From NCBI RefSeq assembly GCF_041260155.1, contig NC_091939.1:42588370-42652369 (forward strand): a stretch of 64,000 bases of DNA, in the 5' to 3' direction. The translations under genes and the position numbers were made by a program. Shown here one piece after another: positions 23,362 through 64,000 of this stretch. The notes under the pieces are model-generated. The model saw nothing but the letters and a program-made list of their open reading frames with translations. It was not told the origin of the DNA and did no database searches. The stretch comes from Ptychodera flava (taxonomy: Eukaryota; Hemichordata; Enteropneusta; Ptychoderidae). Position 1 is the stretch's first letter. The number at the start of each line of letters is the position of its first letter.

Positions 23362-25626
23362 TAATTTTTGGTAGAAGCTATTTCGGGCTACAAACTTGGT
23401 GAAGTTAGCCACACCGTACGATACGAGGTGTCAAACGCAACACACAGGGACAGCCCGTGTCCGATATCTAAGCGCTATACACGTTGAAATATAGTTGCGT
23501 CGTCCATGGATTAAACGTAACTAATTATCAAGAAATATTTCCATATAGTTTTCTAAACACATCGAAATTGAAAATCGGGGTTCGCCGTTCCAAGTTTCAA
23601 AATATCAATATTGAGCCCCTTATCACATTCAAAATATGACGTCCGATTACTGCGATAGCAGTCCGATTACATGCACTCAACATGGGGGCAACAATTTGGC
23701 AACTATGACCCCCTAAATGCCACTTCTGTCGGTGTTAACAGTTTGAGGATAAACACAATGAAGTTTCGAAAGGTATGATAATAAGATTTTGTTGTGATCG
23801 TCATTTATGAAACGACTTTAGGCGAAATTCACTACCTTGTCCTAAAACTGTCACACTGAGTGTAGTTTTAATCGGAGGCGATCGAATCCATACTTTCTAG
23901 TGCAGGAGTAACGGAAGTACAGTAGTCCAGAATAGTGCATTTTCATTTTTTCTTCGCACTACCACTCGTACTGGACACGAATATTCCTTCGTAAGCGCCA
24001 TTTTGAGCGACTCCAATGATTTGTCAATGTACGCAAAACTTCCTGTTTGCAACCAATCACAAACGCAGTTGAAACGGGTAACTCTGCAACAGCTTTTTTC
24101 TAGCGTAATTATAGCGCTCTCTACGGCGACACAATGAGTGGTTCTGTACTGAAAACCTGCCAAATATTACCGATGAATTTAGATAGCGTAAAGGTATCAC
24201 GTATGCTCCATTTGAATTATCGGCGCGACTTTTTTGCCCAATTGATTTTTCTGAATGCGATTTTTCTGATTTTTTAGCGTAAATATTGCGTTATCGCGCC
24301 CCAAAGTGATCCCTGTGACTTAAAATGGCAATTTGAGACTTATGTTACATGTAGAAAAGTAATTATCTTTTTCTAAATACTTTTTTAGTATGGGAATCCA
24401 TGCATCAAAAGTGAAGTACATGTAGAAGATAAACATTGCAAAGTCTGTTGAACCCCAATATTACCTCTTTACCATCTCTTTCCTAATTTGTTCAATACCT
24501 GTACAGGTTTTTGTATTTAATAATTTTATTGGGTTTTCTTAAAAGTATAAAACACATTCTGACAAGCGAAATGTAAAAATCCAAGATGGCGGATTCACGC
24601 ATGCGCAAAAGTTACCATGACGTCAGATTTAAAGTTTGGTTTCCTGGACTTACAATAGAACGTTTTTAGCATATGCCTTTCGTAGACCATCGCGTGTGTA
24701 CCTGGCTTGCTGCAGTGGCCATTTGGCATACATGAAAAATTGAATTCCTGCCTATTTAGATTCATCATTTGCATGAGAAAGCAAGTTACCGAGTGCCTAC
24801 TTCAAATCTTGTACATTACAATTGGATTTGATTTTTGGTGTACAGCTATGACGACTGACCTCTCCCACATATCGTTTTATCCCGGTTATTAAAGGCACCG
24901 GAGATCAAAGGAAAATGACCTGAAAAAGATTTTTGAAATGCAGTATTATCCTGCAGAATGACACATGAGTACAATCAGAGATAATGGTGAGTGAGTTAGT
25001 TGTTTTGACAAAAGAAAGACTATGCTATTAAGTAGACTGAAAGACATTAACAACTTCTTCTGTTCATTTTCTATGCATTCCCTTGGAACAAAGGATCTGT
25101 AATTTTCTTTCACGCCATGAACTTGAACAAACAAAGACTTACGTGATAGTGTTTTCATAATTATATGCATACATTTTTATGCGTTCAATATAATGAAGGC
25201 TTTTCTGAATTCCAGAGCTGTTTTATTTTTCTTACAGATGTTATTTCTACTTTCTGCATTTTCAAAACACTTGACATGCAACTAGTACTTGAAATGTGAT
25301 GTTTCCCTTCTGTGAGATTCCCTTCAGTGATGTTGTACTTGAAATGTGATGTTTAACTTCTTCCAATTTAGTCCAAGATTAGAAAAGTAAAAGACTTAGA
25401 ATGAGAAAATTTATGAAATAATGGACTTTTTCAAAACAGAGGAGATTATTGAAAGGTTTTTAATGTTTTTGTATTATTATTATCAGTATCTAGTACTTGG
25501 TCTATTTTTTCTCATTACATTCAATTTCATGTTTTGCTGTTTATATGTAGTATTAACTTCCCTTACATTTTAGTTGGAAATCAATCAATCAAACAAGTAG
25601 TTGAATAATTTCTCTAATATTTTCAG
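23362..25626. other. No gene recognised; should hold or precede the RAG2L 5' exon
   Basis: No coding exon is recognised. The next exon starts in the middle of a codon, so at least one upstream RAG2L coding exon of perhaps 20 residues is expected here or further left, but none can be singled out. Confidence 0.4.
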
Positions 25627-25919
25627 GTAATGGTATGATGTCAATATACACTATAGGAGGAGGTCGATGGGTGGAAGAAAGTGTTTGGCCATTGTCAAAA
25701 GAGCTGTACAGGCTGGATTTTTTGGTCGATGACAATGATGCTGACTTGACCAGTGTACAAAGGCTGACAGGAAAAGGTGCAATGATGTCACCCCTTCATA
25801 GTAAAGCAATGGTGAATCTCTTATTAGGTGAAGACACAAAGTTTCTGGTATGGGGTGGCTACAATCTGACATCACTGTTTTGTACAAACGAGGCAGTGAC
25901 AACCCTTATGAAAATTTAG
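25627..25919 (+). CDS. RAG2L: RAG2-like, exon with first two kelch repeats
   Basis: After a good acceptor (TTTTCAG) the frame opens in mid-codon and runs 97 residues. Two kelch-type blades are visible: MSIYTIGGGRW then LYRLDFLVDD, and KFLVWGGYNL then NEAVTTLMKI. This lines up with vertebrate RAG2 from about residue 23 to 113 ([35 protein letters not shown]), including the spacing between blades. In RAG2 this six-bladed propeller binds RAG1. The frame meets TAG at 25,917-25,919, where RAG2 would continue. Either the exon ends just before, at the weak donor GCA|GTGACA near 25,893, or the gene is cut there by foreign sequence. The upstream exon with the start codon was not found. Confidence 0.8.
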
Positions 25920-29460: not shown

Positions 29461-29494
29461 TGTAACAAAGTGATCTGCCCAGCTAGTGGGCCAG

Positions 29495-30437
29495 ATTCTG
29501 CGGACCCTTATGGACCTTATGGCCACAGTGTCCATATTCCTGGAGAACTCCATCAAAATGGCAAAATACCATTCCAAAGCTGTGGCTGTACTTTGACAAA
29601 AATACCGGGAGAGAGAACTCTGCAATTTTATTCGGGGGGATTGAAATGATGCATAAATTCTCTAGAATACCAAAGTTTACTCAGGACACCATCGATGGAA
29701 GTTTGTATCTTTTGCTTACAGATAGCCTCACTTGGGAAACAGTGGATGCCCCAGCTTTAGAGCCACATGGTTTCCATTCAGCCACTTATATACCGACTGC
29801 AGCTGCAATTTGTTATGTGGGGGGTGTTACCTTTAGGGAAGGGCATCCTTACAAGAGACACTCAGTTGATGTAGCTACACTGTTCAGTGTAGATTCCAGA
29901 AACAATTGTACTGTGAGATCTGTACATTTACCAGAGACCATTCCTCACTACTTGTCCATGTATGGGGCATTTGCATTTGAGGACAAACTAATGGTATATG
30001 GGGGCTACAGTCAAGAGACAGAATTGATGCAAGAACCTTGTCCCATTCCACATCCATCCTCTCCATGCATGTTTGTTCTGGATCCCCTGAAAAAAAAAAA
30101 AAAAGATTTTTACAAGGCACCAAGTAATTTCGCAAGTGCAGGGCCCACCCTTCACTGCTTGGACAGCACATGTATATTGAGTTTGGGGGGAACAAAAAAA
30201 CACATATTTGTATTCACAACCAAAGGTATGCGTCCAGCACCATGTGACTTGAATGAAAAGTGCACAATAAACAACAGTCCAGAAATTAGCCCAATTGCCT
30301 GTATTCAATGTGAGGGGAGGTGGTTGTATCAATTTTGTGTTCAACTACAAGTGATACCCCAGGGTAAATACGAGTGCAGTGATTGCAAAGATGCAGGGAA
30401 GAAAAGTACAAGCAGGAGGCGTACCAGGAAGAACTAG
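29495..30437 (+). pseudogene. RAG2L: RAG2-like, kelch repeats 3-6 and PHD-like finger
   Basis: The block opens with SADPYGPYGHSVHI, matching RAG2 EARYGHSINVV, probably after the AG at 29,493-29,494. Its frame must change near 29,609-29,616 (a GAGAGAGA tract) to reach ENSAILFGGIEMM, matching RAG2 GVLFGGR; after that it is open to the TAG at 30,435. Further blades are AAICYVGGVTF, KLMVYGGYSQ and CILSLGGTKK, so with the exon at 25,627 there are six, as in RAG2. The end is PHD-like: CDLNEKC, then CIQCEGRWLYQFCVQL, then KYECSDC, and a basic tail KKSTSRRRTRKN. Tyr (TAT, 30,327) stands where the PHD His is expected (RAG2 GHWVHAQC). In RAG2 this finger reads H3K4me3. A 15-A run (30,090-30,104) encodes five Lys. 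Called broken because of the frameshift, but a sequencing error is possible. Confidence 0.85.
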
Positions 30438-33074: not shown

Positions 33075-33431
33075 GGTAGTATGTGCCTCAAAAGTGAAAG
33101 ACTTAAACTTTTGCTTAAACTTTCCTCAATGAAACTTTTGAGCTTTCTCTCACCAAATCCAGAATAAAAATCAGGGGTCACCGTGCAAAGTTTGGTATCA
33201 CATAAACAAATTACCTAAATTTATCAACGTTTCAATTCAAAATGGCCAACATCCCTGTGTTAACTCTATGGAGAAAAATAAAATTATCAATTTTCGAAAA
33301 TCTAAGACGGTGAAACATTTTCTCACACCAAGAGCTTTAAAAAGAGGCCCCCCACCACCCCCAGTGGTAGATCAGAAAAGAAATGTAAAAGTTTGAGAGC
33401 CTGAATATCTGTGCCTGAGGCATGTTCTACT
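33075..33431 (-). mobile_element. Intact MITE-2 (357 bp)
   Basis: Starts GGTAGTATGTGCCTC and ends GAGGCATGTTCTACT (imperfect inverted ends), with TTAA at 33,071-33,074 and 33,432-33,435. Best-preserved copy of the family. From 33,436 to 34,440 nothing else is recognised. Confidence 0.8.
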
Positions 33432-46900: not shown

Positions 46901-47084
46901 GAACATCTAAACTTGTACTTACGCACTGAAGTTGTGTGGGATTGCAAACCCGGAAGTGTTCGAATTTGCATACTGTAATGGCGAAGTTCTGAATTACGTA
47001 CTAGAAATGTTATGTATACACTTATTTGTAAGTTGCTGCAGACAACATGTTTCATTTATTTCTCATTTATTTCTATTTCTAGGG

Positions 47085-48612
47085 TTCACTTTGGATACAA
47101 TCAGCCAGATGATGGTGGCCCAGCCCCAAATGCATTTAGATTCCGGCTGACCAGACGGGGAGTGCACACAATGACTCGAGTATACAATTTTTTTATGCTG
47201 TTTTTCACCGTGGAGGTGATTGGCCGTATATGTGAATATACAAACATATACGGCCATCACAATGTCATCTCAAACCCAAGGTATGGAGAAGCTGATGGCA
47301 GTTGGAGTGACCTTACACCAGATGAGTTGTACAAGTTCATCGGGTTGCTGATTTTTATGGGTCTGGTAAGGCTACCAAACTACGACTCTTATTGGAGTGT
47401 CCAGTCTTTATACAGCGGCTGCTGGGCAAGATCCTTCATACCATCTCGCCAACGATTTAAAGCTATATGGCTTTCTTGAAAATCAGTCACCCGATCATGA
47501 AGATGCAGAGAACAGACCATTTAAAGTTGAGGAACTGTACACACATATGAAATACATTTGTAAACAATATTTTCAGCAAGTGTCTGTGGATGAACGTGTG
47601 GTGGCTGCAAAAGGTAGGGTCCCTGTGAGGCAATTTATGAGGGACAAACCAAAGAGATTTGGAATTAAGTTATGGGTACTTGCAGATGCTGCAACAGGTT
47701 ATACCTTTGAATTTGATATTTATTTAGGGAAGAGGGGAACAAACACATCAAGGAATGGGTTTGGATATGATGTAGTCATGGGTCTTTGTAGGGATTTGTA
47801 TAATAATGGTTACCATGTTTATTTTGACAATTTTTATACTTCCCCAGTGTTATTGCATGATTTGAGGGAACAAGGTGTTCTTGCGTGTGGGACAATAACA
47901 AAAAATCGACGGGGTTTTCCAGCTTGTATGAAGGATGCCAGGTGGGAAAGGACTGCAGAAAGGGGATCAATGCGATGGTACAGGGATGAAACAATATGCT
48001 TACTTTGCAATGGAAAGACAATAGGGCAGTGTGTATCATGTCAACCATCCATACTTCATCTGAACATACCATAGTACAGAGACGTACAAAATCTAGGGAG
48101 GGAATGTTTCAGAGAATTGAAGTGAACGAGCCAGTTGCGATAAGAGACTATAATAAGTTTAAGTACATGGGGGTGTTGATTTATCAGATCAGCTGATAGG
48201 CATGTATTGAGTTGTGCATAAATGTACAAAATGGTGGAAAGAATTATTCTTTCATTTTATTGACATAGCTGTCGTAAATTCTTTCAAATTATTTCAACAG
48301 TTTCGGGAGGAGTTCCCAGAATATGATGAATTGAGGAGACCCTAGGATTATAGTCAACTTGACTTTAGGGAAGAACTGATAAGACAGCTTGCAGGCCTTG
48401 AGAAAAATTCAGAGAATCCCATATTACCAAGACTTAACACGAATAATAATGTTAATAATAATAATAAATGCATTTGCCATTTATTGAAAATATAAGAAAA
48501 AAACTGTAGACACTGCTATGCTTCACAGGGCAGGGAAATAAAATGTCAAACTAAGTGCACTGTGTGCAATATCCATCTTTGCCTCACAGCTGAAAGAGGG
48601 AGCATCATTTAA
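47085..48612 (+). pseudogene. piggyBac-family transposase (PGBD4-like), broken
   Basis: The transposase domain runs in order: GVHTMTRVYNFFMLFF, DELYKFIGLLIFMGL, first catalytic Asp in SVDERVVAAKGRVP, an RNase-H core (KLWVLADAATGYTF), second Asp in HVYFDNFYTSP, then VQRRTKSREG, third Asp in MGGVDLSDQL, and the late helix WWKELFFHFIDIAVVNSF. A C-terminal Cys-rich finger follows (RHCYASQ, KCTVCNIHLC). The reading frame changes near 47,465, 47,990 and 48,165, and there is a TAG in frame near 48,343, so it is dead as it stands. The frame starts after an intron-like acceptor (TTTCTAG, 47,082); no N-terminus or TTAA-flanked ends were found. It could once have mobilised the TTAA MITEs of the window, but their ends cannot be compared with its own. 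Confidence 0.85.
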
Positions 48613-48744
48613 ATATGTAAATAAATAAATTATAAAGATAATAAAATTTGGGGAAAAGTTTCATATACCAAATGATACTGGTATGTTCAAATGTGATATG
48701 GATGATTGACATGATCCGGAGTTCTTTGAAATACGTTTTGATTT

Positions 48745-49195
48745 GGAATTCAAAATTTATCATACAACTCTTCTGATGTAAGATCATAGTTGATCTGCAA
48801 GTTGATCTTACAATACAAATTATTGTTTTGAAAGCAGTGAAATATATTGTGATGTAGTTCAAAATTTATTGTGCAACTCTTCTGATGTAAGATCATAGTT
48901 GATCTGCAAGTTGAACTAACAATACAATTTATAGTTTGAAAGCAGTGAAACATATTTTGATGTAGTTCAAAATTTATTGTACAACTCTTCTGATATAAGG
49001 TCATAGTTCATCTGCCACAGACACACAAGCCCAACTGCCAATAAAATTTATAGTTTGAAAGCAGTGAAATATGTTTTGATGTAGTTCAAAGTTTATTGTA
49101 CAACCCTTCTGATGTAAGGTCATAGGTCATCTGCAAGCCCATAACTGACAAAACAAATCATAGTTTGAACGCAGTGAAATATGTTTTTGATGTAG
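48745..49195. repeat. 109-120-bp tandem repeat, four units
   Basis: Each unit holds GTAGTTCAAAATTTATTGT, CAACTCTTCTGATGTAAG, TCATAGTTGATCTGCAAG and AGTTTGAAAGCAGTGAAA. Starts are near 48,749, 48,858, 48,968 and 49,088. Frames on the - strand here are products of the repeat. 49,196-50,229 holds nothing recognised. Confidence 0.85.
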
Positions 49196-50232
49196 ATTTG
49201 ATAATGTACTAACACTGAATCAAGCTATCATACATGTGTACAGGTCATAATTTCAACAAACTGTGTATTTTATAGTTATTTGCTGGTCATCCTTATTATG
49301 TGTGAAACATTTGCCAGTTCAACATGCAAATATTTATGTCAAGATTGAACAGAGGAGTCTTTGAATTCCAGATATGAATATTGATGTATAAGTTCCAGTC
49401 TTATTTATATTCCTCAATTGCCATTTCATTTACTTATTATTGAATTTCAACATTGAAACACATTCTTATGTTCCAATTTGCACCTATACTGGTGAAGGAT
49501 ATTCACCTCAGGGATTTCGAAGCAGTTCTCTTATAAGAGACTTTCAGCCAATTTAAGTTTTACAACTGCAGCAAAATGAGTGTAAGTTCATTGTTAAATT
49601 GTGTTTGCATGGACATGCATGTTAGAAATAAGGACATAGTCCCATGAACGTGCCAATTTTGGATAATGAATCATTGTAAATATTTAATATTTTTAGATCT
49701 TTTCTCAGGAAAACAAATACATTGTTCATATCATAAGGAAAACAAAGAAATATTATAAGATATTCTTTCTTTTTTAATGAGAAAGCGAAGTATCATGTTT
49801 CTGTTTCCACTTTTACCAGAGTGGTACATTAAACTTATCTTTCTCCGTTTATAAAATGTATACCATAGTCTGTGTATGTATATATGTGTACATGTGTATG
49901 TACAAATGTTTGTGTATTTATAGGGTTTGTGAGTTGACATAACTGTGCTTAAATTTTTGTGATGTCATATAAGTATTTGCCTAAACAAACAAAACCTATA
50001 CTCTTTGATATTGAGATGCTCTCGTGGAAAGGGCGACTGCATCCCAACCTATTCCTAAGAGAGTGCAAAACAAATTTGCATATAATTTGCATAGAATAAT
50101 TAAAAGTGCATATTAAAAGGACAGAATGTAAAACAAAATACAACTATTGTGAACACTTATATGATAAATTATTGAAACGGGCAATATGTCACAGAAAAAA
50201 GCAAACCGTCATGTCAAAAACATGTCGCAGTT

Positions 50233-50746
50233 CACTATAGGGAAAAAGTGCGTGACTAGAGCGAGAAACTGACGCTTTCTCGCAATCGGTGAGAATCTGT
50301 TCTTATTCTCACCGCTGTCGGTGAGAAAATTTTAATCTCCACTGGAGATTGGTGAGAAATGCACTCCTTGGGGAGAATCAAGTGTGAGAACAAATTCTCA
50401 CCGGTGAGAATGGAAATTCTCACTAAGTGCAGCGAGAAGTGAAATTCACTGGCGAGAATCATCAAGACTCGCCGTTCGGAGTCTTTATGATTCTCGCCAA
50501 TGAATGGCGAGTCTTGATGATTCTCGCCAGTGAATTTCAATTCTTGCTGTACATAGTGAGAATTTCCATTCTCACCGGTGAGAATTTGTTCTCACACTTG
50601 ATTCTCGCAAAGGAGTGCATTTCTCACCAATCTCCAGTGGAGATTAAAATTTTCTCACCGACAGCGGTGAAAATAAGAACAGATTCTCACCGATTGCGAG
50701 AAGGCGTCAGTTTCTTGCTCTAGTCACGCAATTTTTCCCTATAGTG
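50233..50746. mobile_element. 514-bp palindromic element with CACTATAGGG ends
   Basis: The whole element is an inverted repeat with arms of about 250 bp at roughly 95% identity; it begins CACTATAGGG and ends CCCTATAGTG. GTT at 50,230-50,232 and 50,747-50,749 is a 3-bp target duplication. The arms are full of short GAGAATC/GATTCTC and GGTGAGAAT motifs. CACTA ends and a 3-bp duplication fit EnSpm/CACTA or Chapaev3. Open frames on both strands are mirror images and not genes. Confidence 0.85.
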
Positions 50747-51612
50747 GTTGGCCAAGACTGCTTGACATCCACTTTTGCCCTGCTTTTATACATTTCAAAA
50801 ATTACCTATAACTTTTACATTATTTAATATTTTCTTCTCAAATTTTCTCCAAGTTATTTCATGATGTGCATACATTTTATCATAGATCACTTTTGATTGA
50901 AATAACATGTAGAAAATGTGTAAAAATGTCTTTTTCCAAAATTCAGGTAAAAATGGTGGCCATTTTGGAATGATTTGCATAAATATTTGCATATATTTTG
51001 CATACATTTGCATATTTTGGGGGGCTTTACTACATATTATGCACGTCTGTTTATTTGCGGTCGATCGCGGAAAATCAGTGTGCGCATACGCGGTAAACGA
51101 GATCGCAATTCTCACGCGTGATATTTCGTGATTTGGAATATTTAAATGTTTAGAGCATGGGGGGTCGAACGTTCTTCACACTTTTCCCGCCCATTTTAAA
51201 TAAATAACCTAATATGGTGATGTCACATGAGAGTTTGGGAATACCCTTACGTCATTCACTGTGTTTACATAGAAATTTCAACGGCACCATATGCCATAGT
51301 TGACTGACGACCGTTGAAGACGGACGCAAATTTCTTGCCCTGTAAATGGCATGATTTCACAACAATTGTAAAATCGTCATATTTGTCGAGCAGAATAAAT
51401 ATTTTTCAGAGTTTAAACATTAATGAAATGAGTTTTTATGTATTTTATGCTGAATTTAGCGAAGTTTGATCATGGGTATATGTCCGGGCGTAGTCTCTGA
51501 TGCCGGGGCACGACGTTCAAAAATGTTACAATTTTCGACGATTTTAAACCTGTTACGCCAATTAATATTTCTAACGGTCGGTACAAAACTCAATCATCGA
51601 GTTCTAATCAAT
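50747..51612. other. Upstream region of RAG1L
   Basis: Non-coding. TTTGCATA-type octamer-like motifs cluster at 50,965-51,020. The frame before the chosen RAG1L start is open back to 51,466 with an ATG at 51,472, but the sequence there is not RAG1-like. Confidence 0.4.
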
Positions 51613-52653
51613 ATGTCAGTTGTGGCTGACCTCGAACTTCATCAAAAAGCGATCGAGTTACGATGTAGACTTTGCTGTGGCAATGTAAACAGACCCGGAA
51701 GTCGTAGGTACAGAGTACGTGAGTTTGTCGGAGATATCAAGGTTACTTTTAGTACTGATGTTACGAGCGATGAAAACGGGGTTCATCCTTTGCACTTTTG
51801 TGGCAACTGTCACAGAAAATTGTTGCATGTAAAGCAAGCCATACTGCTGGGAAAGGTCTATCAATTCAATGGAGAGCCTTTTCATTGGTCTAAACATCCG
51901 CGGAATGGGGTGTGTTGCATCTGTTCACTGTTAGTGGCCAGCCAGAAGGGAGGCAGATCTAGGAAGCAACTGAAGTCCCCCCACAAATATGTAGCTCAAC
52001 CATCATCATCTCTAAGCTCTGCCAATGAACTTAAAAAATCTGTTCAACAGTGCCCCCCTTCAGAAAAGTCAGCAAACATAGATGACATATTAATGAAAAT
52101 TGAAAGTGAAAAATCTGAGAGCTTTCAAGGTGGCAGTGAAATATGTCTCCAACCTAGCATATTTGTTGACCAGATTTCTACTGAATTTATGTGCCCAATA
52201 TGTAAAGAGGTGCTCGATGGGCCAGTACAAATAGTATGTGGTCACATATACTGTAGTGAGTGTCTCCGTGAATGGGTTTCGGCATCAACAACTGTCAGTA
52301 GATGTCCCATTTGTCGTTTTGGAATCACCTCACCTACCTGTATAATAAGATGCGCCATCCCGTTCAATACCTGTCTTGGGGAAAAGTACATGACCTGTCC
52401 AACTTGTCAGGATACCCTACAACTCTGTCAACTAAAATCGCATAAGTGTAGTGATGTCAACCCTGCTGAGGCTTCAAAACCAACGACCCCGAGTGAGACC
52501 GAAAATGCAGTTTCTGTGCTTTTGAGGCCTGGCGTCACACTTTCTAATATTCCTGGCTTTGAAGACCTTGCCACTAAATGTCTGAAGGAGAAAGTGGACT
52601 GCACACCAAATTCACAAAGTGGTGCTCCTGTGCGTTTTAAAACAGGTGGTCCT
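51613..52653 (+). CDS. RAG1L: RAG1L exon 1: N-terminal zinc region, RING and zinc finger
   Basis: 347 residues from the ATG of MSVVADLELHQKAIELRC, chosen because similarity to RAG1 begins just after it. CRLCC (Cys18, 21), VHPLHFCGNC (Cys63, 66) and HPRNGVCCIC (about 97-104) match RAG1 CRICG, IHPTEFCHNC and HPHTPSCDIC. A RING finger follows at residues 194-234 (FMCPICKEVL, VCGHIYCSEC, SRCPICR), a likely E3 ubiquitin ligase as in RAG1. Then a second zinc motif at 262-279 (MTCPTCQ, LKSHKC) matches the zinc finger after the RAG1 RING. The exon is fully open and ends CCT|GTAAGT in phase 0. Confidence 0.9.
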
Positions 52654-53123
52654 GTAAGTTTTAGATTTTATTGTCACTTCTTTGAGATCAGTCTCACTTT
52701 TTGTAGATTGATGATAATATGTGAGCAAAACCAATCATGAAAAGTAACAGAAAATACTGCATGATCCAAACAACAAAAATTTCAGATATTTACTTAATAA
52801 CTTCCATTAAAAGAAAAACAATATCACTGTGAGCACATACATTATGGTGTGCAAACACCAACTGTATATGTAATTCCTATGATATTGTTGAGAAATATAA
52901 TGTTGAATTCAATAACCAATATCAGTGTATCTTGTCTGTGATATTTCTGGTTAGCCTTAAAGGGAAAAATATCTAAAAAAAAGATTTTTTGCTCGCCGCT
53001 CCTGAGCCTTGGTCCAAAAGATCCGATGAACAAGATTTTTCTTCTCTGGCCTAATATGAATACACATAATACAAGGTATGGGGATAATCAGCAGTGGCAT
53101 TTATGCACTTTTTATTTCTTCAG

Positions 53124-53410
53124 CCAATTTATATGCAGCGCATAACGAAGCCAAGGAAAGACAGTGCATCAGTGACTCCCAGAACCAAGTTAAACAGAAG
53201 TAAAGTCATCTGTCAACTTAGGAACCAAGTCAGTGGTGGTAATTCTGGACTGTGTGAACAGTTTTCCTGTGATATCAAGACACTTGATAAGACAGAGAGG
53301 GCAGCTGTCCTTAGTAATCTTGGTCTCCTCCCAGACATGAAAGCTGGTGATGGTCTCAGTATGAAAGTAGACATGCGTCTGACTTGGTATCAATTCCGAA
53401 AACTGAAACA
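53124..53410 (+). CDS. RAG1L: RAG1L exon 2: basic DNA-binding region
   Basis: Acceptor TTTCTTCAG, donor AAACA|GTGAGT, ending in phase 2. It encodes about 95 residues: a basic start (RITKPRKDSASVTPRTKL, then RSKVICQLRNQV) in the place of the nonamer-binding domain of RAG1, and MKVDMRLTWYQFRKLKQ, which matches the RAG1 stretch LSCSQYHKMYRTVKAITG in position. No disruption. Confidence 0.85.
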
Positions 53411-53764
53411 GTGAGTAAAGCAGCTCAGTAGTCTTTCAGTACATGTCTAACTTTACAGTTGAAACTTGTAAAAACTTGATTCAAGTATGAAAAATATTTG
53501 AGAACTTCCATATGGCTGGTTCTAGGAAGTGACAACACCAGCATCTCTAAATCTGATATATTGAACTTTTAATCATGTGGTAACTGCTGTCTGTGTTATT
53601 AGTTTAACATACTCTCATGGCTTCAGCAACATTTTTACATTGTATGTCTCTTTCAAAAACACGTTGTCAATATTGACTTGACAGAATATATATTCTATAA
53701 GGGTTGTTTGATATTTTGTGTGGAGTTTGACTTACTAATGCATGGTCATTTTATTTTCATCAAG

Positions 53765-53980
53765 GTGGCTGAGAAAATGGAAGCTGAGTTTGAGAAGTGA
53801 GGTGCATGACAGGAAGGAGTTTGCTGCCCTTACACCATCACTGTATGCAGAATACCTTCCATTTACATTTCCTGTCAAAACATCTACGGGCAAACAAAAG
53901 ATGGAAATACGATTGGCACCACTGGTTGGCTGTGATGACTTGCTTGCTCTGGTTGAGCAACACTTAGCAGCCAATCATGA
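53765..53980 (+). CDS. RAG1L: RAG1L exon 3
   Basis: Acceptor TTTTCATCAAG; the first base completes the split Gln codon of exon 2. It encodes WLRKWKLSLRSEVHDRKEF through QHLAANHE, ending GA|GTGAGT in phase 2. This is the linker between the DNA-binding region and the catalytic core. The frame is open. Intron 3 holds a (GA)n microsatellite. Confidence 0.85.
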
Positions 53981-54042
53981 GTGAGTAAATAGTTTGCCTT
54001 TCCAGATAAATACAAAATATCTTACAGGTACCATAATATATT

Positions 54043-54043
<1 letters not shown>

Positions 54044-54118
<75 letters not shown>
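54044..54118. repeat. (GA)n microsatellite in RAG1L intron 3
   Basis: About 75 bp of uninterrupted GA repeat, 145 bp before the exon 4 acceptor. Confidence 0.95.
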
Positions 54119-54120
<2 letters not shown>

Positions 54121-54262
54121 TGCAAAGCAATGCCACACGATTACATTGTCATTGATCAGTATTTTAGAATATACATTCACCATAGCGTGTCTGTGTTACT
54201 GACATGTGCATCCATTCTCCCTGCCTAATTTTTAATGGGATGAAGATAATTTTGCATTTCAG

Positions 54263-54508
54263 ACTTGGTAGGTTAACCTGACATTGTGGAACCATCCCTG
54301 AAGACATCATCCAAATTAAAATTGGAGGTGATAAAGGAGGTGGATCAATGAAGTTCATCTTTGAAGTCTGCAATCTGGAGCATCCAAATGCAAAGGAAAA
54401 CACTGTAGTGTGGTTGTTGTTTGAGGCCGGTGACAGTCATTACAACACGACAGTGGCACTAGAGAACTATGCCCAGGTTGGTCACAGTTTGAACGGACAC
54501 AAATGGAA
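54263..54508 (+). pseudogene. RAG1L: RAG1L exon 4: first catalytic Asp, with in-frame TGA
   Basis: Acceptor TTTGCATTTCAG, donor GGAA|GTAAGT; phases join exons 3 and 5. Read in that phase it gives ELGRLT, a TGA stop at 54,279-54,281, then HCGTIPEDIIQIKIGGDKGG with the first catalytic Asp, and KFIFEVCNLEHPNAKENTVV. The stop differs by one base from TGG (Trp), a plausible original. Further on are LLFEAGDSHYN and QVGHSLNGHKW. No other AG lies between the stop and the coding part that would avoid it. Confidence 0.85.
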
Positions 54509-54677
54509 GTAAGTCTGAAGCAAATTATCCATAAAATATACCACACTGGTCTTGCCATGTCATTGAGTAACTGTGATTCAGCCGTTTGATGAAGGTGTCT
54601 CTATGTGAAGTTAAGCCAAAGGATTAAATATTTTCCAAAGTCTATCACTTTTAAGTCATTTAGCAGTTGTTTGTGCA

Positions 54678-54760
54678 TACAGTGTTTTCCTTTGCATTTG
54701 GATGCTCCAGATTGCAGACTTCAAAGATGAACTTCATTGATCCACCTCCTTTATTACCTC
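54678..54760 (-). repeat. Inverted 83-bp copy of exon 4 inside intron 4
   Basis: The reverse complement of 54,678-54,760 matches 54,325-54,407 of exon 4 at 82 of 83 bases, covering the codons from GGDKGG to KENTV. The one difference turns the catalytic GAT (Asp) into AAT (Asn) in the intronic copy. A transcript could fold exon 4 onto intron 4 with a loop of about 270 nt. Confidence 0.95.
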
Positions 54761-54857
54761 TTTATGTAATATTTTCAGTTGAGTGAGCGCAAACAATGTA
54801 ATCTCAATCAAAGCTATATGTACATGTAAACACAACAATTTGTTCGATATTTTGCAG

Positions 54858-54934
54858 CAAATACACAATAGAGGTGGTTATGTGTGGTGACTATGAGTAT
54901 GAGACAAAGATGTATGGCTTATCTGGCGCTGCTG
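54858..54934 (+). CDS. RAG1L: RAG1L exon 5: second catalytic Asp
   Basis: 77 bp after TATTTTGCAG, ending GCTG|GTAAGT. It encodes KYTIEVVMCGDYEYETKMYG then LSGAAG, in the place of RAG1 [23 protein letters not shown] with the second catalytic Asp (D708 in mouse). Undamaged. Confidence 0.85.
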
Positions 54935-55138
54935 GTAAGTTTGGTAATTAATATTTTCATCTGAATATGATCAAAATTTTAAGAGAAAAGCTACTATAGA
55001 ATAAAGTGATTGGGCATATACTAATGCAGTCTGTTGATCTTGGCAGGTATTTCAGTGATTGTTCTATTGAAGTATATTCTGACTGTTTGTGTTCATGTCA
55101 AGCAAATTATAGTGCCAATTGTGTATATCTCATTTTAG

Positions 55139-55341
55139 GTAAACATTTCTGCCTGTGGTGCAACATAGATAAAGATCTGGCCAAGGAACCTCTGTCTGAG
55201 CGTGGCAAACAATGTCCTCGAACAGTGGAAGATATCATCCAATTCAATAACAGTTTTGTAGCAGCAGGAGCCAGATTAAAAGATGCATCCAAATACTTCA
55301 ACTGTGTCCATCAGCCAATGTTGATGATTCCAATTAGCCAG
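55139..55341 (+). CDS. RAG1L: RAG1L exon 6: zinc-type CLWC segment
   Basis: Acceptor CTCATTTTAG, donor CCAG|GTGAAT, phase 1 to 0. It begins KHFCLWCNIDKDLAKEPL, matching RAG1 VYICTLCDATRLEA (zinc ligands of the core), and ends QPMLMIPISQ, in the place of RAG1 KPFIETVPSIDALHC. Undamaged. Confidence 0.85.
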
Positions 55342-55452
55342 GTGAATATAAAACAACTTAAGTACAGTACTGTATTCCATTAAGAGCAGTCAATGATAAC
55401 AAATACATAACAATGAAAATAATGCTTTTATCATCTTTGCATATTTTGACAG

Positions 55453-55818
55453 GTTTGCCCACCAGCATTGCATCTAAGCCTTGGAATCTTCTTGAAGCTA
55501 TTCAACTTGCTAGAGAGTTACTGCATACCTCTGGATGTTCAAATGTATCTTCAAATACACAAGAACACTCCTGACAGTAACTCTCAACCTGCAACACAGG
55601 TCCGGGCAGATTTTAACACCTATCTGGCCCTAGCAGTTGAAATAGCTTCTTTAAAAGATACCATGGCAAAGATCGATGAGGAGTTGTTGGACATAGATGG
55701 TCAGATGATTTCTTCCATGTTAGATGACCAACAGGAATCAGACTCTCCACAGACTAGCACAGACATGAATTGGTTGCAGGCTGCGAAATGTGAAAAACAA
55801 AGAGAGCTACAAACTCTG
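55453..55818 (+). CDS. RAG1L: RAG1L exon 7
   Basis: 122 residues in phase 0, from VCPPALHLSLGIFLKLFNLL (RAG1: [20 protein letters not shown]) through a helical, partly charged stretch (KDTMAKIDEELLDIDGQM) to KQRELQTL, ending CTG|GTTAGT. The middle is likely coiled-coil. Undamaged. Confidence 0.85.
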
Positions 55819-56067
55819 GTTAGTAGGCTAATGTCATTCTCAGTTGTGATACTAGCTATTCAACTACGCAGTCATGTTTTGATGAAAATACAGTATGAAA
55901 AAGACATTCACTCTCAGGAAATTTGGTACTACTTGCTGCTGATGCAATACATTTTTTAGCATAGAAGATTGAATGCATTTGTGATTACATGTACATTGCA
56001 TTATGACATGGATTATACAGTTATAACAGAGTACTAGTATATTGATTCTTGTTATTTTTTCCTGTAG

Positions 56068-56220
56068 CAAACAAAAATTACTACAAAACAGAAAAGCTTG
56101 CCAAGTGAGACTGGTTATATCATCCAGGCCATTGATATGACACTGCAGAGTATTAATGTTAAACGTCAGGCATATCATGGAAAGAGCTTCATTGGAAACC
56201 ACGTAGATACTTGTTTAAAG
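56068..56220 (+). CDS. RAG1L: RAG1L exon 8
   Basis: 51 residues between TTTTTCCTGTAG and AAG|GTTGGT. It ends RQAYHGKSFIGNHVDTCLK, the most strongly RAG1L/Transib-like motif after the active site. Undamaged. Confidence 0.85.
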
Positions 56221-56397
56221 GTTGGTATCATTGTTGCCACAACATTGTTTTTAACTCATGACACTACCTTCTGATAGAATGCTCCTGATTGGAACTCATA
56301 TTTTTACAACTCTTTTCTGGTTTACCATGAGTGGGGTTTATTTTGAAGCACTGTGGGTATGAATTGTTTTCACTGGCTTGGTTTTGTGAAAATTCAA

Positions 56398-56623
56398 AAT
56401 GTATTTTTCCTCCTTGAGTTAACAAAGGGATTTCTATCCATTTCAAATTTCAAGTGTCAATAAACATTGAGTGTAATTTGTTTCTCTAGTACAAAATTTG
56501 CAAGGTGACCGATGATTCTTAATTCTTCTCAAATTGGTGAAAGTACGGTTGCAAGTTTCTCTCAGGAAAGTTTCAGAGCAAATTTAAGATTGAAGTCTTT
56601 CATTTATAGGACATATGCTACCT
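56398..56623 (+). mobile_element. Partial MITE-2 in RAG1L intron 8
   Basis: Matches the body and right end of the MITE-2 family and stops at TTAA (56,624-56,627), 20 bp before the exon 9 acceptor. The left end is missing or unrecognisable. Confidence 0.6.
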
Positions 56624-56647
56624 TAACACGTATAAATTCTATTTTAG

Positions 56648-56831
56648 CCCAAGAACATCAACAAGATTTGTGCGACTGTGGTTAACTGTGTGCAGTCCAT
56701 GTGCCCATCACTTATTGACATGGCACATGAGATCCATGACTTGTTTGAGCCTCTGCTGCTCAAATTCAGTAGATGTCACTCTCTGTACAGCGTCAGTAGA
56801 CCACTATCCCCCAGTGAGATCAGTGAGTTTG
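56648..56831 (+). CDS. RAG1L: RAG1L exon 9
   Basis: 61 residues after TTCTATTTTAG: PKNINKICATVVNCVQSM, LIDMAHEIHDLFEPLLLKF, then PLSPSEISEF, ending TTTG|GTAAGT in phase 1. Helical region before the last catalytic residue. Undamaged. Confidence 0.85.
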
Positions 56832-57331
56832 GTAAGTAAGCTGATGTAAGAAACCCTGTGATAATTGAATAATTTTAAAGGTACTTGACCTGAAAACCTT
56901 TCATAAAATCGATGCACTTTGGTAGTTCAAATTGTATGTATATAAAATGCATCAGACGAATGCACGGTCACCATTAAAGGTCACTTCATCAAAAGCATAT
57001 GGCCCAAAGGTCAAATTGCAGGTGTATAATAGAAGCCCTAGTCCACATAGCATGGCATACAATTTCAGAAGTTTAAGGTTGTAAAAATGTCATCCTGTTT
57101 TCTCTAAGTCCAAAACAGAGTTTTATACAAGACTTCTTTGATTATTTTCCCTTGTAATTCTACACATGACAAAATCTCATGCAAAATGGCCTTCTCGTAA
57201 GAAAGAAATAAATGATCATGAGATCACACAAACTCATTTTACACATTTCAGTTTTATTTTCATCAGTGATTATAGGATGGGGGTATAAAACCTTAGTTTT
57301 TTCAGAAAAACTATCCATATTCAATTTTTAG

Positions 57332-57554
57332 GACATAACGTAGAAGACTTATGCGATATTTCCGCAATAAGTTCCCCAACGAAAGTGTCACACCTAAAAT
57401 GCACATCCTAGAAGATCATGTGTTACCATGGATGGAAGTACGAGGTGTTGGATGTGGCCTCCATGGAGAACAGGGAATGGAAGGGGTGCATTCAGAGTTC
57501 AACAGCTGGGTGCAACTTACAGCAGGATGCCAGACAAACTTCAGCGCTACAACA
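57332..57554 (+). pseudogene. RAG1L: RAG1L exon 10, first part: catalytic Glu
   Basis: After CAATTTTTAG the phase gives GHNVEDL; the frame then slips one base (about 57,350) to MRYFRNKFPNESVTPKMHIL, EDHVLPWMEVRGVGCGL and HGEQGMEGVHSEFNSWVQL, which holds the third catalytic acid (Glu). It slips again near 57,525 to MPDKLQRYN. Both slips equal one lost base. The exon is then cut by a 4.3-kb TIR element. Confidence 0.85.
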
Positions 57555-60500
57555 CTGTGCTCTCGCTGTCGCTCGTAACGTTCGTAAATTACGAACAAAA
57601 ATGAAAATTTACGAAAAAAAATACATGCCCGATCGGCCATTTACGAACAATTTTGTTATTTTTGAAGCCTGATTTTCGGTCGAGATTATGAATTCCGCGG
57701 AAATACTGTCATATTTCGTCTTTCAAAAACTACTCTGCCCCTATCATCGGCGCATCGACGATGGTAATAGCTGTGGACTTTGACCTGTGCTAACATGAGC
57801 ATGCGCGAAAAGGTTTCAAGATCCCCGGGTCGTGTACCCAGATACTGGTGTGCTATGCATTACGGTAGTTTCGAGATACCCAAACACTCACATGCTGTCA
57901 ACTTTCCGAATGGACGCTGGTGAAGCGGATCGAGGGAAGCGGGCAGTTACAAATGCTTTAGCTGTAGTATCCTCAGCTGGGAAAGAAAGTTAGGCATAAA
58001 TACGGCACCTGATATGAAAAATTGGAAACAATGAAACCGCCGAGAAGAGATCAAGACAGTGAGCCGGAAAGATAGTCGAACTGCAATCCGGACCGCGCAT
58101 GGTTGAACGATGTACCGTACTGCAAAGTGTTTGTCTGTACATGGAGCGGAGGTGGAAAAGAGCCGGAAATCTTAGCCGGAAATCGTAGTTGTCATAGATT
58201 TGTCATTTAACGATCTGCAGATTGAATCTTTTTAAGTGAACTTGCCAATTTTAATAGGTTTCCTTCAAAATATTTTACAAGAAACTGTCTCAGCAAATGT
58301 TATGAATACTGATAGTTTTCTTTGATGATCCGAAGACAATGCTATGCACACTCCCAAGACGAAAACGTTTATCCAGACAAAAAATAAATGACGATCATCT
58401 GCAGCGTTTTAAAAGTAAAACTGTCTCTAAGAAAACATTAGCAGGATCACCAGTCTCAGTTTGCGTACTTAAATTTGCTGTTATAATCAGACAAAATTTG
58501 TGCGAAACCACAGACTGCCAAATGTTCTGATCAGTGGTTGTTTTAAAAGAATTTATATGGCATAATGACTGCAGCTACCAAGAGGCACCACACACCTATG
58601 GATAACATGCATACTTTCAAAGTAACAGAGCTTTCCAAATATGAAAAACAGGTCAGAGATTTTCTAGCATCTAAACTTGTGCAAACACTGATAATATTAA
58701 TGATCACTTCATATATTAATATAAAGCACTGACTACACACACAAAGGGAGTTACGATTTGTGTCACAATATACTTGAAAATGTTATGTTGTGTAAGAAAG
58801 ATCGATTAATTGAATAACATTCATGGGCCGGTTGACCAAAATGACACACTTTATTGAAACAAGGAAGAAATTTCAATGTTACAAGCCTGTGCTCTCGCTG
58901 TCGCTCGTAACGTTCGTAAATTACGAACAAAAATGAAATTTACGAAAAAAAATACATGCCCGATCGGCCATTTACGAACAATTTTGTTATTTTTGAAGCC
59001 TGATTTTCGGTCGAGATTATGAATTCCGCGGAAATACTGTCATATTTCGTCTTTCAAAAACTACTCTGCCCCTATCATCGGCGCATCGACGATGGTAATA
59101 GCTGTGGACTTTGACCTGTGCTAACATGAGCATGCGCGAAAAGGTTTCAAGATCCCCGGGTCGTGTACCCAGATACTGGTGTGCTATGCATTACGGTAGT
59201 TTCGAGATACCCAACACTCACATGCTGTCAACTTTCCGAATGGACGCTGGTGAAGCGGATCGAGGGAAGCGGGCAGTTACAAATGCTTTAGCTGTAGTAT
59301 CCTCAGCTGGGAAAGAAAGTTAGGCATAAATACGGCACCTGATATGAAAAATTGGAAACAATGAAACCGCCGAGAAGAGATCAAGACAGTGAGCCGGAAA
59401 GATAGTCGAACTGCAATCCGGACCGCGCATGGTTGAACGATGTACCGTACTGCAAAGTGTTTGTCTGTACATGGAGCGGAGGTGGAAAAGAGCCGGAAAT
59501 CTTAGCCGGAAATCGTAGTTGTCATAGATTTGTCATTTAACGATCTGCAGATTGAATCTTTTTAAGTGAACTTGCCAATTTTAATAGGTTTCCTTCAAAA
59601 TATTTTACAAGAAACTGTCTCAGCAAATGTTATGAATACTGATAGTTTTCTTTGATGATCCGAAGACAATGCTATGCACACTCCCAAGACGAAAACGTTT
59701 ATCCAGACAAAAAATAAATGACGATCATCTGCAGCGTTTTAAAAGTAAAACTGTCTCTAAGAAAACATTAGCAGGATCACCAGTCTCAGTTTGCGTACTT
59801 AAATTTGCTGTTATAATCAGACAAAATTTGTGCGAAACCACAGACTGCCAAATGTTCTGATCAGTGGTTGTTTTAAAAGAATTTATATGGCATAATGACT
59901 GCAGCTACCAAGAGGCACCACACACCTATGGATAACATGCATACTTTCAAAGTAACAGAGCTTTCCAAATATGAAAAACAGGTCAGAGATTTTCTAGCAT
60001 CTAAAACTTGTGCAAACACTGATAATATTAATGATCACTTCATATATTAATATAAAGCACTGACTACACACACAAAGGGAGTTACGATTTGTGTCACAAT
60101 ATACTTGAAAATGTTATGTTGTGTAAGAAAGATCGATTAATTGAATAACATTCATGGGCCGGTTGACCAAAATGACACACTTTATTGAAACAAGGAAGAA
60201 ATTTCAATGTTACAAGCCTGTGCTCTCGCTGTCGCTCGTAACGTTCGTAAATTACGAACAAAAATGAAAATTTACGAAAAAAAATACATGCCCGATCGGC
60301 CATTTACGAACAATTTTGTTATTTTTGAAGCCTGATTTTCGGTCGAGATTATGAATTCCGCGGAAATACTGTCATATTTCGTCTTTCAAAACTACTCTGC
60401 CCCTATCATCGGCGCATCGACGATGGTAATAGCTGTGGACTTTGACCTGTGCTAACATGAGCATGCGCGAAAAGGTTTCAAGATCCCCGGGTCGTGTACC

Positions 60501-61544
60501 CAGATACTGGTGTGCTATGCATTACGGTAGTTTCGAGATACCCAAACACTCACATGCTGTCAACTTTCCGAATGGACGCTGGTGAAGCGGATCGAGGGAA
60601 GCGGGCAGTTACAAATGCTTTAGCTGTAGTATCCTCAGCTGGGAAAGAAAGTTAGGCATAAATACGGCACCTGATATGAAAAATTGGAAACAATGAAACC
60701 GCCGAGAAGAGATCAGACAGTGAGCCGGAAAGATAGTCGAACTGCAATCCGGACCGCGCATGGTTGAACGATGTACCGTACTGCAAAGTGTTTGTCTGTA
60801 CATGGAGCGGAGGTGGAAAAGAGCCGGAAATCTTAGCCGGAAATCGTAGTTGTCATAGATTTGTCATTTAACGATCTGCAGATTGAATCTTTTTAAGTGA
60901 ACTTGCCAATTTTAATAGGTTTCCTTCAAAATATTTACAAGAAACTGTCTCAGCAAATGTTATGAATACTGATAGTTTTCTTTGATGATCCGAAGACAAT
61001 GCTATGCACACTCCCAAGACGAAAACGTTTATCCAGACAAAAAATAAATGACGATCATCTGCAGCGTTTTAAAAGTAAAACTGTCTCTAAGAAAACATTA
61101 GCAGGATCACCAGTCTCAGTTTGCGTACTTAAATTTGCTGTTTATATCAGACAAAATTTGTGCGAAACCACAGACTGCAAATGTTCTGATCAGTGGTTGT
61201 TTTAAAAGAATTTATATGGCATAATGACTGCAGCTACCAAGAGGCACCACACACCTATGGATAACATGCATACTTTCAAAGTAACAGAGCTTTCCAAATA
61301 TGAAAAACAGGTCAGAGATTTTCTAGCATCTAAAACTTGTGCAAACACTGATAATATTAATGATCACTTCATATATTAATATAAGCACTGACTACACACA
61401 CAAAGGAGTTACGATTTGTGTCACAATATACTTGAAAATGTTATGTTGTGTAAGAAAGATCGATTAATTGAATAACATTCATGGGCCGGTTGACCAAAAT
61501 GACACACTTTATTGAAACAAGGAAGAAATTTCAATGTTACAAGC
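57555..61544 (+). repeat. Three tandem 1.33-kb units
   Basis: Units at 57,555-58,886 (1,332 bp), 58,887-60,217 (1,331 bp) and 60,218-61,544 (1,327 bp). They are almost identical; differences seen are nearly all one-base changes in homopolymer length (for example AAAC against AAC, TTTTAC against TTTAC). Confidence 0.95.
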
Positions 61545-61826
61545 ACTCATGACCCATGATGTACTGTGTTATTTAATGGATCTTTTGAAAATGTGTATCA
61601 AAATATGAGTGTTCATTGTCAAAAAAAACTAAAAAGGAATTTTTCACTTTCCTTTGTTTATAATGAAATCATTCATCATTTCTATACCCTTAACATCATT
61701 TATTGAGTACCAGAAGTGCTCGTTGAAAATGGGCGGGCTCAGCATTACATAATTTATGCTTACTAATTTATTTTGAACCAAATTCGTAAATTTACTAACA
61801 ATTTCTAAAGGCCAGGGAGAGCACAG
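57555..61826. mobile_element. 4.3-kb TIR element inserted in RAG1L exon 10
   Basis: It begins CTGTGCTCTCGCTGTCGCTC and ends, read inward, CTGTGCTCTCCCTGGCC, with similarity reaching the TAAATTTACGAA motif about 40 bp in. CAACA on both sides (57,550-57,554 and 61,827-61,831) is a 5-bp target duplication. Most of it is three tandem copies of a 1.33-kb unit, each starting with the same TIR, followed by a single right arm. A 63-68-residue frame (MLCTLPRRKRLSRQKINDD) recurs once per unit, but nothing resembles a transposase. The 5-bp duplication and CTGTGCTCTC ends suggest a hAT-like or related non-autonomous element; the superfamily is not certain. Confidence 0.85.
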
Positions 61827-61831
61827 CAACA

Positions 61832-61916
61832 GCTTATGAAAATGCACCACTTGTCAGTACATCCCGTCAAATCATCAGACAAACCTGAAATTAAACGGCG
61901 AAAATTAAAAACATAG
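61832..61916 (+). pseudogene. RAG1L: RAG1L exon 10, C-terminal end
   Basis: Directly after the target duplication a frame opens as MKMHHLSVHPVKSS then KPEIKRRKLKT and TAG (61,914-61,916). A basic tail after the RYNSL-type helix is what a RAG1-like C-terminus should look like, so this is taken as the displaced end of exon 10. It is one base out of frame with the part before the insertion. Confidence 0.7.
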
Positions 61917-62083
61917 TTTAAAATTGTAAATTGAAATCACATTTTAATGAACTGATAATTGAATCAACAATCAATTTTATCTCTGAAAAAACAAAGCTTA
62001 GTTTATCACTCCTGAGGTGTTATGTATTTCCCATCTTTTACCATAGCTAATGTATGTGGCTGTGAAAGGGTTAAACCTCTTAC
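61917..62083. other. Spacer between RAG1L and the - strand gene
   Basis: AT-rich sequence of 167 bp between the RAG1L stop and exon 2 of the - strand gene. It includes the donor (GTAAGA) of that exon; no AATAAA is seen for RAG1L. Confidence 0.5.
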
Positions 62084-62294
62084 CTGCCATTGCTTGACAT
62101 CATCCACAGATTTGTCCAGTGTGTCTTTCATTTCTTTGACTGGTGAGATGACTTTAGTCCAACTCTGCATCAGATCGTCAAGGTCACGTTTCAAAGTCTC
62201 AGCTCTCTGTTGAGAGGTTGAGTTCTTCACAAAGTCAGTACATGTTATACAATGTAAGGGTTGATTGCTGTCATAGAATGGTCTGGTGCAACTC
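62084..62294 (-). CDS. Unidentified host gene, coding exon 2
   Basis: On the - strand, acceptor GATAG and donor CAG|GTAAGA frame 211 bp, open throughout. The first base completes the codon split from exon 1. It encodes SCTRPFYDSNQPLHCITCTD, then FVKNSTSQQRAETLKRDLDD and MKDTLDKSVDDVKQWQ. The Cys pair CITC follows shortly after another Cys, and the rest is a heptad-like helix, probably coiled-coil. I do not recognise the family. It ends in phase 0, so further exons lie at lower coordinates, in or beyond the RAG1L locus. Confidence 0.6.
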
Positions 62295-62976
62295 CTATCA
62301 AACAGAAATTAAATGTATGAAATTTAATTTGGCATTGGAAAATGAGGAGTTTTAAGCCTAGGTAAGAGACAGGCAAAATCAGTATAAAGTCAAAAACAAA
62401 ACAGAATTAATAAAGAAAAAAAGCGTACATGAAGTAGAAGAATGCAATAATTACCATTTACAGCATCTTACAGATATTTTTCTCTCATATTTTTTTATAA
62501 CTATTAAAAAACACATTTTCATTCATTTATCACTTCTGACTCTACTTTGTTGCAGCTTACAATTTCCATCAGTCAGCTGTGCAGAATGATTGGAGTCCAA
62601 GCTAAGCACGGCCGTCAGTAAGCTGTATTCAGTATAACTGGAGTGCTAAGGCGAGCTGCAGTATTCTCAACAAGCATACGCCGAGGAGCCATAGCTACTC
62701 TGTGGGTATGGAAGTCTGCTTGATTGATCGTCTGCTCCATCAATCGATCTTGAACTCGGTATTCTGCCCTCTGTCCTAACTAAATATTACTTTAAAGCCT
62801 AAATCACAGAGTACGCGTTTGAGGGGAGTAGACTAACTAGCCGATAAGCGGCTGCGTCAGGAGCATCTGCTGTGAAATTTTACTGTCTTAGTGTCTAACT
62901 CTGAGAGCGATGGCCCAGATATTAATTTTAAACTGAGCATTATATTGCCACAAAGGAAACTGTTATTGTGACTCAC
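62295..62976. other. Intron of the - strand gene
   Basis: The interval between the two coding exons; no other feature recognised. Confidence 0.5.
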
Positions 62977-63068
62977 CTTCGACTCCTGTTTGGTCGCACG
63001 ATATATCTAAAATGATTCCACATTAAATGAAATATGTTCGGGAGGTAACTTGGATCGTTCCTAGCCAT
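62977..63068 (-). CDS. Unidentified host gene, coding exon 1
   Basis: On the - strand an ATG at 63,068 opens MARNDPSYLPNIFHLMWNHF then RYIVRPNRSR and ends CGAAG|GTGAGT in phase 2, which fits exon 2 exactly (AG+G, Arg). The short Arg- and aromatic-rich N-terminus could be a targeting or membrane-proximal segment; this is only a guess. Upstream (63,070-63,470) is CpG-bearing and promoter-like. Confidence 0.55.
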
Positions 63069-63477
63069 ATCCGAAACGCAGTGCACTGTATATACACTTG
63101 AATATCGTCAATATGCACCGCCATCTTGTCCGTCACTCACAGTACAGAGGAAGCCCGGCAGTGGATCTGATGAAGCGTGCAGTTCTCGTCAGTTCCTTGC
63201 AAGTCTCTGGCTCAGAAAACAATTATCCTTCACAGAGAAATGTTCCGTGGATACTTTCAGTGATACGTTCCAACTTAACAGTAATCACTGACTCTGAAAG
63301 ATAAACGACGTTCACATCGAGCCCTAGGGCCATACATCGCGTAAGTTTTGCTTGTGGACGGTAATTACTATGTCTGACGCCTTGGAAAAATTTACACCAA
63401 TGGTATTCTTTAGCGCCCTCTATATCTTAACGAAAGTGCATCTCGCCGTATGAATGCAGTCGTCCTGTGTACCAGTA

Positions 63478-64000
63478 GAAACTGAGGAACTGGTCAGTTT
63501 CTTTCGCCTGGGAGCGGTGAATTCATGGGAGGTCACCCTTTTTTTACTTTGGTGTTGGGGTCACCATGTCTTTGAAACGCCCAATAGAGGTCAGAGTGTT
63601 TTTGAATTTCCACACGGGCCCATACTTTTCTAAAATGCATCGTGTCAGCAGCAAATTTCATCATTCAGTTGCATTTTTCGGTGCGCCCTTGGGGCGTGTT
63701 ACTTTAATAATCAGACATATTTTTCAGACCTACATATATCAGAGATATTGTATATTCAATATTTTACAATGGGCTCTTCGGTTGCATTAGGGACTGGTCA
63801 GTTTCTTCGCTGGGGGGGGCGGTGGATTCATGGGGGGTGTCACCCTGTTTTTGACTTTGGTGATAGGGGGTCACCATGTTTTTGAAATGCCCAATGGGGG
63901 GGGGTCAGTGGGTTTTTGAATTTTGACACAGGCTCATCATTGCCTAAAATGCATTGTGTCAGCCACATATCATTCAGTTGCATTTTTCATCGCGCCCTTC
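63478..64000. repeat. Tandem copies of the GGGACTGGTCAGTTTCTT family, running off the edge
   Basis: Two ~310-bp copies (from about 63,478 and 63,788) repeat ACTGGTCAGTTTCTT, GGTGAATTCATGGG, GGTCACCATGT, TTTGAAA(C/T)GCCCAAT and CATTCAGTTGCATTTTTC. The second is cut by the window end. Same family as 31,717-32,672; the frame at 63,566-63,790 is a by-product. Confidence 0.75.

Follow-up and report, generated by a model that had tools for sequence, protein, structure and literature searches.

A probably decayed Chapaev-type transposase gene with a RAG1-like N terminus in Ptychodera flava

We analyzed a stretch of 64,000 nucleotides from Ptychodera flava (contig NC_091939.1, positions 42,588,370 to 42,652,369 of the forward strand; here called the window), in which a gene on the plus strand had been read as RAG1-like from its letters. 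The best explanation, to which we give a probability of roughly 0.78, is a decayed copy of a Chapaev-type transposase gene of the subgroup with a Chapa domain and a RING, with a DUF1280-type, RNase H-like DDE core; the full protein is probably lost. Seen this way, the gene looks like an ordinary relation of the immune recombinase, which would not descend directly from it.

The multi-exon coding chain on the plus strand is real. As rebuilt, it has 11 exons (Table 1), the first ten of which hold 996 codons with a single stop; as triplets across the window include stops at a rate of 0.057, this is far beyond chance. The GC content by codon position was 0.49, 0.40, and 0.41, and that of the introns was 0.33. 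The zinc region, the RING, the GGDKGG and GDYE aspartates, and the EGxHxEF glutamate named by the sequence-only reading were all found in this one chain. Its picture of ten exons that are phase-consistent throughout did not hold, as the rebuilt chain has 11 exons, an in-frame TGA, and weak or ambiguous late junctions.

Table 1. Features of the Chapaev-type gene and of the RAG2-like sequences (positions in the window)
Feature	Positions	Strand	Basis
Kelch-like open frame	25605..25919	+	By eye; without Pfam or PDB match
RAG2-like fragment: kelch blades and probable C-terminal PHD	29487..30437	+	Amphioxus RAG2L 6b40_M, E 1.7e-25
Exon 1: Chapa/RAG1_imp_bd zinc region (aa 45-143), RING (aa 193-235), probable Cys/His finger after RING	51613..52653	+	PF12560, RING families, PDB RAG1
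VHPLHFCGNC motif	51781-51810	+	
RING	from 52192	+	
Exon 2: DUF1280 match starts at exon end	53124..53410	+	GT-AG chain; PF06918
Exon 3: inside DUF1280 match	53765..53980	+	PF06918
Exon 4: in-frame TGA and first catalytic Asp (GGDKGG, D538); DUF1280 match ends	54263..54508	+	
In-frame TGA	54279..54281	+	No splice alternative tested avoids TGA
GGDKGG motif	54324-54341	+	
Exon 5: second catalytic Asp (CGDYE, D608)	54858..54934	+	
CGDYE motif	54883-54897	+	
Exon 6: C(2)C motif CLWC, 19 residues past D608 (mouse RAG1: D708 to C727)	55139..55341	+	
CLWC motif	55150-55161	+	
Exon 7: ALH motif, H697 at position of RAG1 H795	55453..55818	+	
Exon 8	56068..56220	+	Splice chain
Exon 9: 3' end uncertain, 56831 or 56835	56648..56835	+	
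Exon 10: H(4)H motif and catalytic Glu (E972); start and 3' end uncertain	57344..57554	+	
HILEDH motif	57402-57419	+	
EGVHSEF motif	57480-57500	+	
Tandem array, three 1.33-kb units (1332, 1331, 1327 bp), between exon 10 and candidate last exon	57555..61544	.	
Candidate last exon: basic C terminus ending KRRKLKT*; acceptor ambiguous	61811..61916	+	

The N-terminal half of the product bore out the claim of a RAG1-type front, in that a Chapa/RAG1_imp_bd domain precedes a RING, the arrangement of RAG1. Exon 1 matched the Pfam model RAG1_imp_bd (PF12560) with 31.3 bits against a cut-off of 23.3, and RING families also scored above their cut-offs. Pfam has no model named Chapa; that Chapa is a truncated RAG1 N terminus is taken from the available text of PMC4411706. 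When residues 1 to 179 were compared with PDB at E values up to 10, all three matched sequences were RAG1, with a best whole-sequence E value of 4.3e-4 and a best single stretch of 0.0092, and the alignment paired VHPLHFCGNC with IHPTEFCHDC of RAG1. Entire exon 1 matched 177 PDB sequences at E values up to 1; the best 60 listed were mostly other RING proteins, with RAG1 included, and the RING alone is therefore not RAG1-specific. NCBIfam gave three matches, each under its own cut-off, the best being rad18 (4.7e-8) over the RING. As for the zinc finger proposed to follow the RING, the RAG1 matches in PDB do extend past the RING (query 191 to 296), and a Pfam match of its own is absent.

The core was assessed with the 684 residues that follow exon 1. 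They matched a single Pfam family, DUF1280 (PF06918; 6.3e-12; 46 bits against a cut-off of 25), over residues 72 to 232. This match stops about 40 residues beyond the first Asp, and the remaining core has no family match. The Pfam RAG1 model did not match these residues at E values up to 1, and PDB chains gave no match at E values up to 10. As a positive control, the mouse RAG1 core was searched against the same PDB copy and matched amphioxus RAG1L at 2e-44; no Transib structure was listed for that query at E values up to 0.001. Local alignment with the mouse RAG1 core was no better than with shuffles, 82, 204, 573, and 434 of which per 1,000 reached the score under four settings. A genuine RAG1 core was thus not supported by profile, PDB, or pairwise tests, and the statement that every RAG1 domain is present fails for this half of the protein. 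A 193-residue core segment was also searched against viral contigs, without a pattern match, and against bacterial and archaeal contigs, where none of 16 pattern matches was confirmed; these searches reach close relatives only.

Since the alignment stayed at shuffle level, the link to the RAG1 core is drawn from motifs and the literature. The order of D538, D608, C(2)C (627), ALH (H697), H(4)H (946), and E972 is that of RAG1, and three measured intervals are similar to those of the mouse protein: 19 residues in both from D to C, 70 against 68 from C to ALH, and 26 against 25 from the first H to E. The interval from ALH to the first H is unlike that of RAG1, at 249 residues against 142. The first Asp of RAG1, D600, lies outside the mouse fragment compared. 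The roles of D708, C727, H937, and E962 in RAG1 are background, and their positions were confirmed in the mouse sequence. Compared with vertebrate RAG1 as a whole, the gene shares the homologous N-terminal zinc region and the RING that follows it, and differs in a core that profile, PDB, and pairwise alignment do not recognize as RAG1.

H795 is described as an active-site residue of RAG1 in the available text of PMC7204232. In the CMC/Transib/RAG1 clade of DDE enzymes, C(2)C and H(3-4)H are common to the members, according to the accessible part of PMC12730594; here the three acids are present in the order D, D, E, and both zinc motifs come after the second D and before the E. DUF1280 proteins are putative transposases of Chapaev transposons and group in the same clade of RNase H-like enzymes as RAG1, as stated in the part of PMC3985635 available. 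The available text of Kapitonov and Koonin (2015; PMC4411706) gives the Chapaev transposon protein a Chapa domain, behind which two subgroups have a RING in the RAG1 order, and a core only distantly related to other Transibs. In these sources Chapaev and RAG1 are distant relatives, and the gene is therefore RAG1-related as a Chapaev and not as RAG1 or RAG1L. We assign the core putatively to Chapaev on one profile match, that to DUF1280.

Chapaev proteins with a Chapa domain and a RING have thus already been described, in the available text of PMC4411706, and the gene is one more such. It is likened to them by published description and by profile, in its Chapa zinc domain, its RING, and its DUF1280-type DDE core; it is unlike them in that terminal repeats were not found and a stop lies in frame.

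The reading as a relative of RAG1 therefore stood for the N-terminal half and not for the core half, which gave DUF1280 instead of RAG1. Best matches to unrelated DDE families had been named as evidence against it, and the core did match another DDE family, although one that is thought to be distantly related to RAG1. The identity that had been proposed, RAG1L proper in the manner of ProtoRAG/TransibSU, would fit the RAG1-type N terminus and the D-D-E motifs at RAG1-like spacing. We nevertheless consider it extremely unlikely, because the core matched DUF1280 and gave neither a Pfam RAG1 match at E values up to 1 nor a PDB match at values up to 10, while the mouse control reached amphioxus RAG1L in PDB. 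Kapitonov and Jurka, in 2007, are said to be a further source on Chapaev transposons.

We examined the state of the copy at the stop and at the late junctions. The TGA shares its exon with the first Asp, and joining every GT donor in 53900-54059 to every AG acceptor in 54100-54309 gave no stop-free in-frame join around it. The junction into the exon with the Glu is in frame with the donor GTAAGC (6/9 of the consensus) and an acceptor with 4 pyrimidines in 12 positions; the alternative donor GTAAGT, four bases earlier, gives a frame that stops at 57409-57411, ahead of the Glu. Exon 10 possibly contains a frame break after HSEFN, past which the alternative frame reads LGATYSRMPDKLQRYNTV. Judging by relatives, LGATYSRMPDKLQRYNTV may well be the true continuation. 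For the last junction, which spans the tandem array of about 4 kb, there were seven in-frame joins among the enumerated sites, none clearly right. The in-frame TGA and the weak late junctions count for a fossil, and the gene is probably a fossil copy.

The units of the tandem array differ in 12 alignment columns, 9 of which are one-base indels, so that the assembly may carry indel errors; with an assembly apparently prone to indels, part of the decay may be artefact. The units had no other match in the window at E values up to 1e-3. An origin of the array as a transposon insertion was considered and set aside; its flanks are ACA and ACT, and a target duplication is thus not seen.

These data bear on the alternative that the host has domesticated a Chapaev transposon and expresses the gene in intact form, with the stop and the frame problems being assembly errors. 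Some 1,000 codons open save for one stop would suit such a gene, as would array differences that look like sequencing noise (9/12 one-base indels) and the lack of detected terminal repeats. The TGA, however, is not explicable by an indel in a base run, and the late junctions are weak or ambiguous. We judge domestication unlikely, if the most serious of the alternatives, and tentatively favor the fossil transposon copy over it.

Several repeats lie in or near the gene. Positions 54325-54407 of exon 4 (83 bases, with the first catalytic Asp) recur inverted in intron 4 at 54678-54760 with 99% identity, and the two copies could form a long hairpin in the transcript. Part of intron 8 (56295-56626) is an interspersed repeat that matches 33071-33397, 14863-15052, and 174-253. 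The start codon lies about 870 bases downstream of a foldback at 50233-50746, whose arms of 245 bases are 96% complementary and 24 bases apart. Farther upstream, a piggyBac-type transposase (Pfam DDE_Tnp_1_7; 46979-48074, plus strand) is present in two overlapping frames and is frame-broken as assembled. Rfam gave no match at the gathering threshold.

The flanks of the gene were searched for transposon ends. With CA..TG termini, duplications of 3 to 5 bases, and at least 15 of 20 positions matching, no pair was found (left, 46000-51612; right, 57600-63974), while three of nine control placements gave one or two pairs. In narrower flanks (left, 48100-51611; right, 61910-63969), termini of any kind at 16/20 gave no pair, and CA..TG termini at 13/20 gave four, the best at 14/20; five shuffles of the latter search gave 0 to 3 pairs, the best up to 15. 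Repeats with a target duplication were therefore not above controls, and transposon ends are not shown. The ends of the Chapaev gene may have been lost. An autonomous and still active Chapaev element, whose ends were missed by the search used, would agree with the conserved catalytic and zinc motifs. It is very unlikely, given the in-frame TGA, the weak late junctions, the 4-kb tandem array close to the 3' end, and the ends that were not found.

The window also holds a RAG2-like fragment, 21 kb upstream of the Chapaev gene on the same strand. At E values up to 1, it matched 14 PDB sequences, with amphioxus RAG2L the best and the other 13 being ING-type PHD proteins; neither vertebrate RAG2 nor other kelch chains were among these 14. 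The ING-type matches cover the C terminus of the fragment, with a best E value of 0.0014. In Pfam, two kelch-type families matched under their cut-offs (best, 4.9e-6), and neither a RAG2 nor a PHD model matched, so that the PHD is indicated by weak matches. The kelch-like open frame farther upstream is perhaps the 5' part of the same gene. About 3.5 kb with GC-rich repeats separates the two pieces, and by eye the frame changes near 29.5 to 29.6 kb; the RAG2-like gene is broken, a fossil. At opposite ends of the stretch that splits it are a 24-base GC-rich tandem repeat (26060-26259) and a 53-base repeat (29306-29461), which look alike by eye, a likeness without a blastn report.

A RAG1 core was not detected in the window by a mouse core search, which would not see cores that are strongly diverged or split into small pieces, or by six-frame Pfam scans in which 36 translations covered the window. 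Those scans can overlook real domains, as PF12560 was not among their matches even though exon 1 by itself scores above the cut-off of that model. The 2.1 kb of the window downstream of the Chapaev gene gave neither a kelch nor a RAG2L match. The RAG2-like fragment is the point of likeness to ProtoRAG and the invertebrate RAG1L-RAG2L transposons as described in the available text of PMC7204232, and the remaining argument for a true RAG1L gene; unlike in those elements, the core is not RAG1L, and the fragment lies upstream on the same strand rather than tail-to-tail. RAG pseudogenes and unlinked RAG2L genes are known, according to the part of PMC8355894 available. The same text describes N-RAG-TP of Aplysia, which by that description is a mobile element too and encodes a protein resembling the N terminus of RAG1.

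The accessible part of PMC9435367 reports that Aureococcus has RAG2L upstream of RAG1L, with both genes pointing the same way. Because of this arrangement, we keep as a reading that the Chapa-RING Chapaev gene and its RAG2-like neighbor, which share the plus strand at a distance of 21 kb, were once a single element or a functional pair; its support is entirely positional, and we give it hardly any credence. Shared ends for the two genes as one unit gave no pair at 14/20. The RAG2-like gene alone gave three rows, representing two distinct terminus pairs, at 15/20 without a control, and we draw no inference from them. A Chapaev with RAG2L is not described in the available text of PMC4411706. If such a linked element were true, a Chapaev transposon would have gained a RAG2L apart from the Transib/RAG1 line, and a RAG2 partner would have been recruited twice, or before the two lines split.

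For the favored Chapaev-type transposase, a mode of action can be proposed by its motifs. An intact protein would bind the ends of its element, cut with the D-D-E triad, and then paste the element elsewhere. C(2)C and H(4)H would hold a zinc beside the active site, and the RING, by analogy with RAG1, would act as a dimer scaffold or as a ubiquitin ligase.

A fossil RAG2-like fragment in a window where a RAG1 core was undetected is a small data point on the scattered remnants of RAGL genes. The gene itself indicates that a RAG1-type N terminus, a RING, and the D-D-E order are insufficient to identify RAG1, as Chapaev has the same front with a different core. It also adds a data point for the view, published in the available text of PMC4411706, that the common ancestor of Chapaev, Transib, and RAG1 already had this N terminus linked to its catalytic core.
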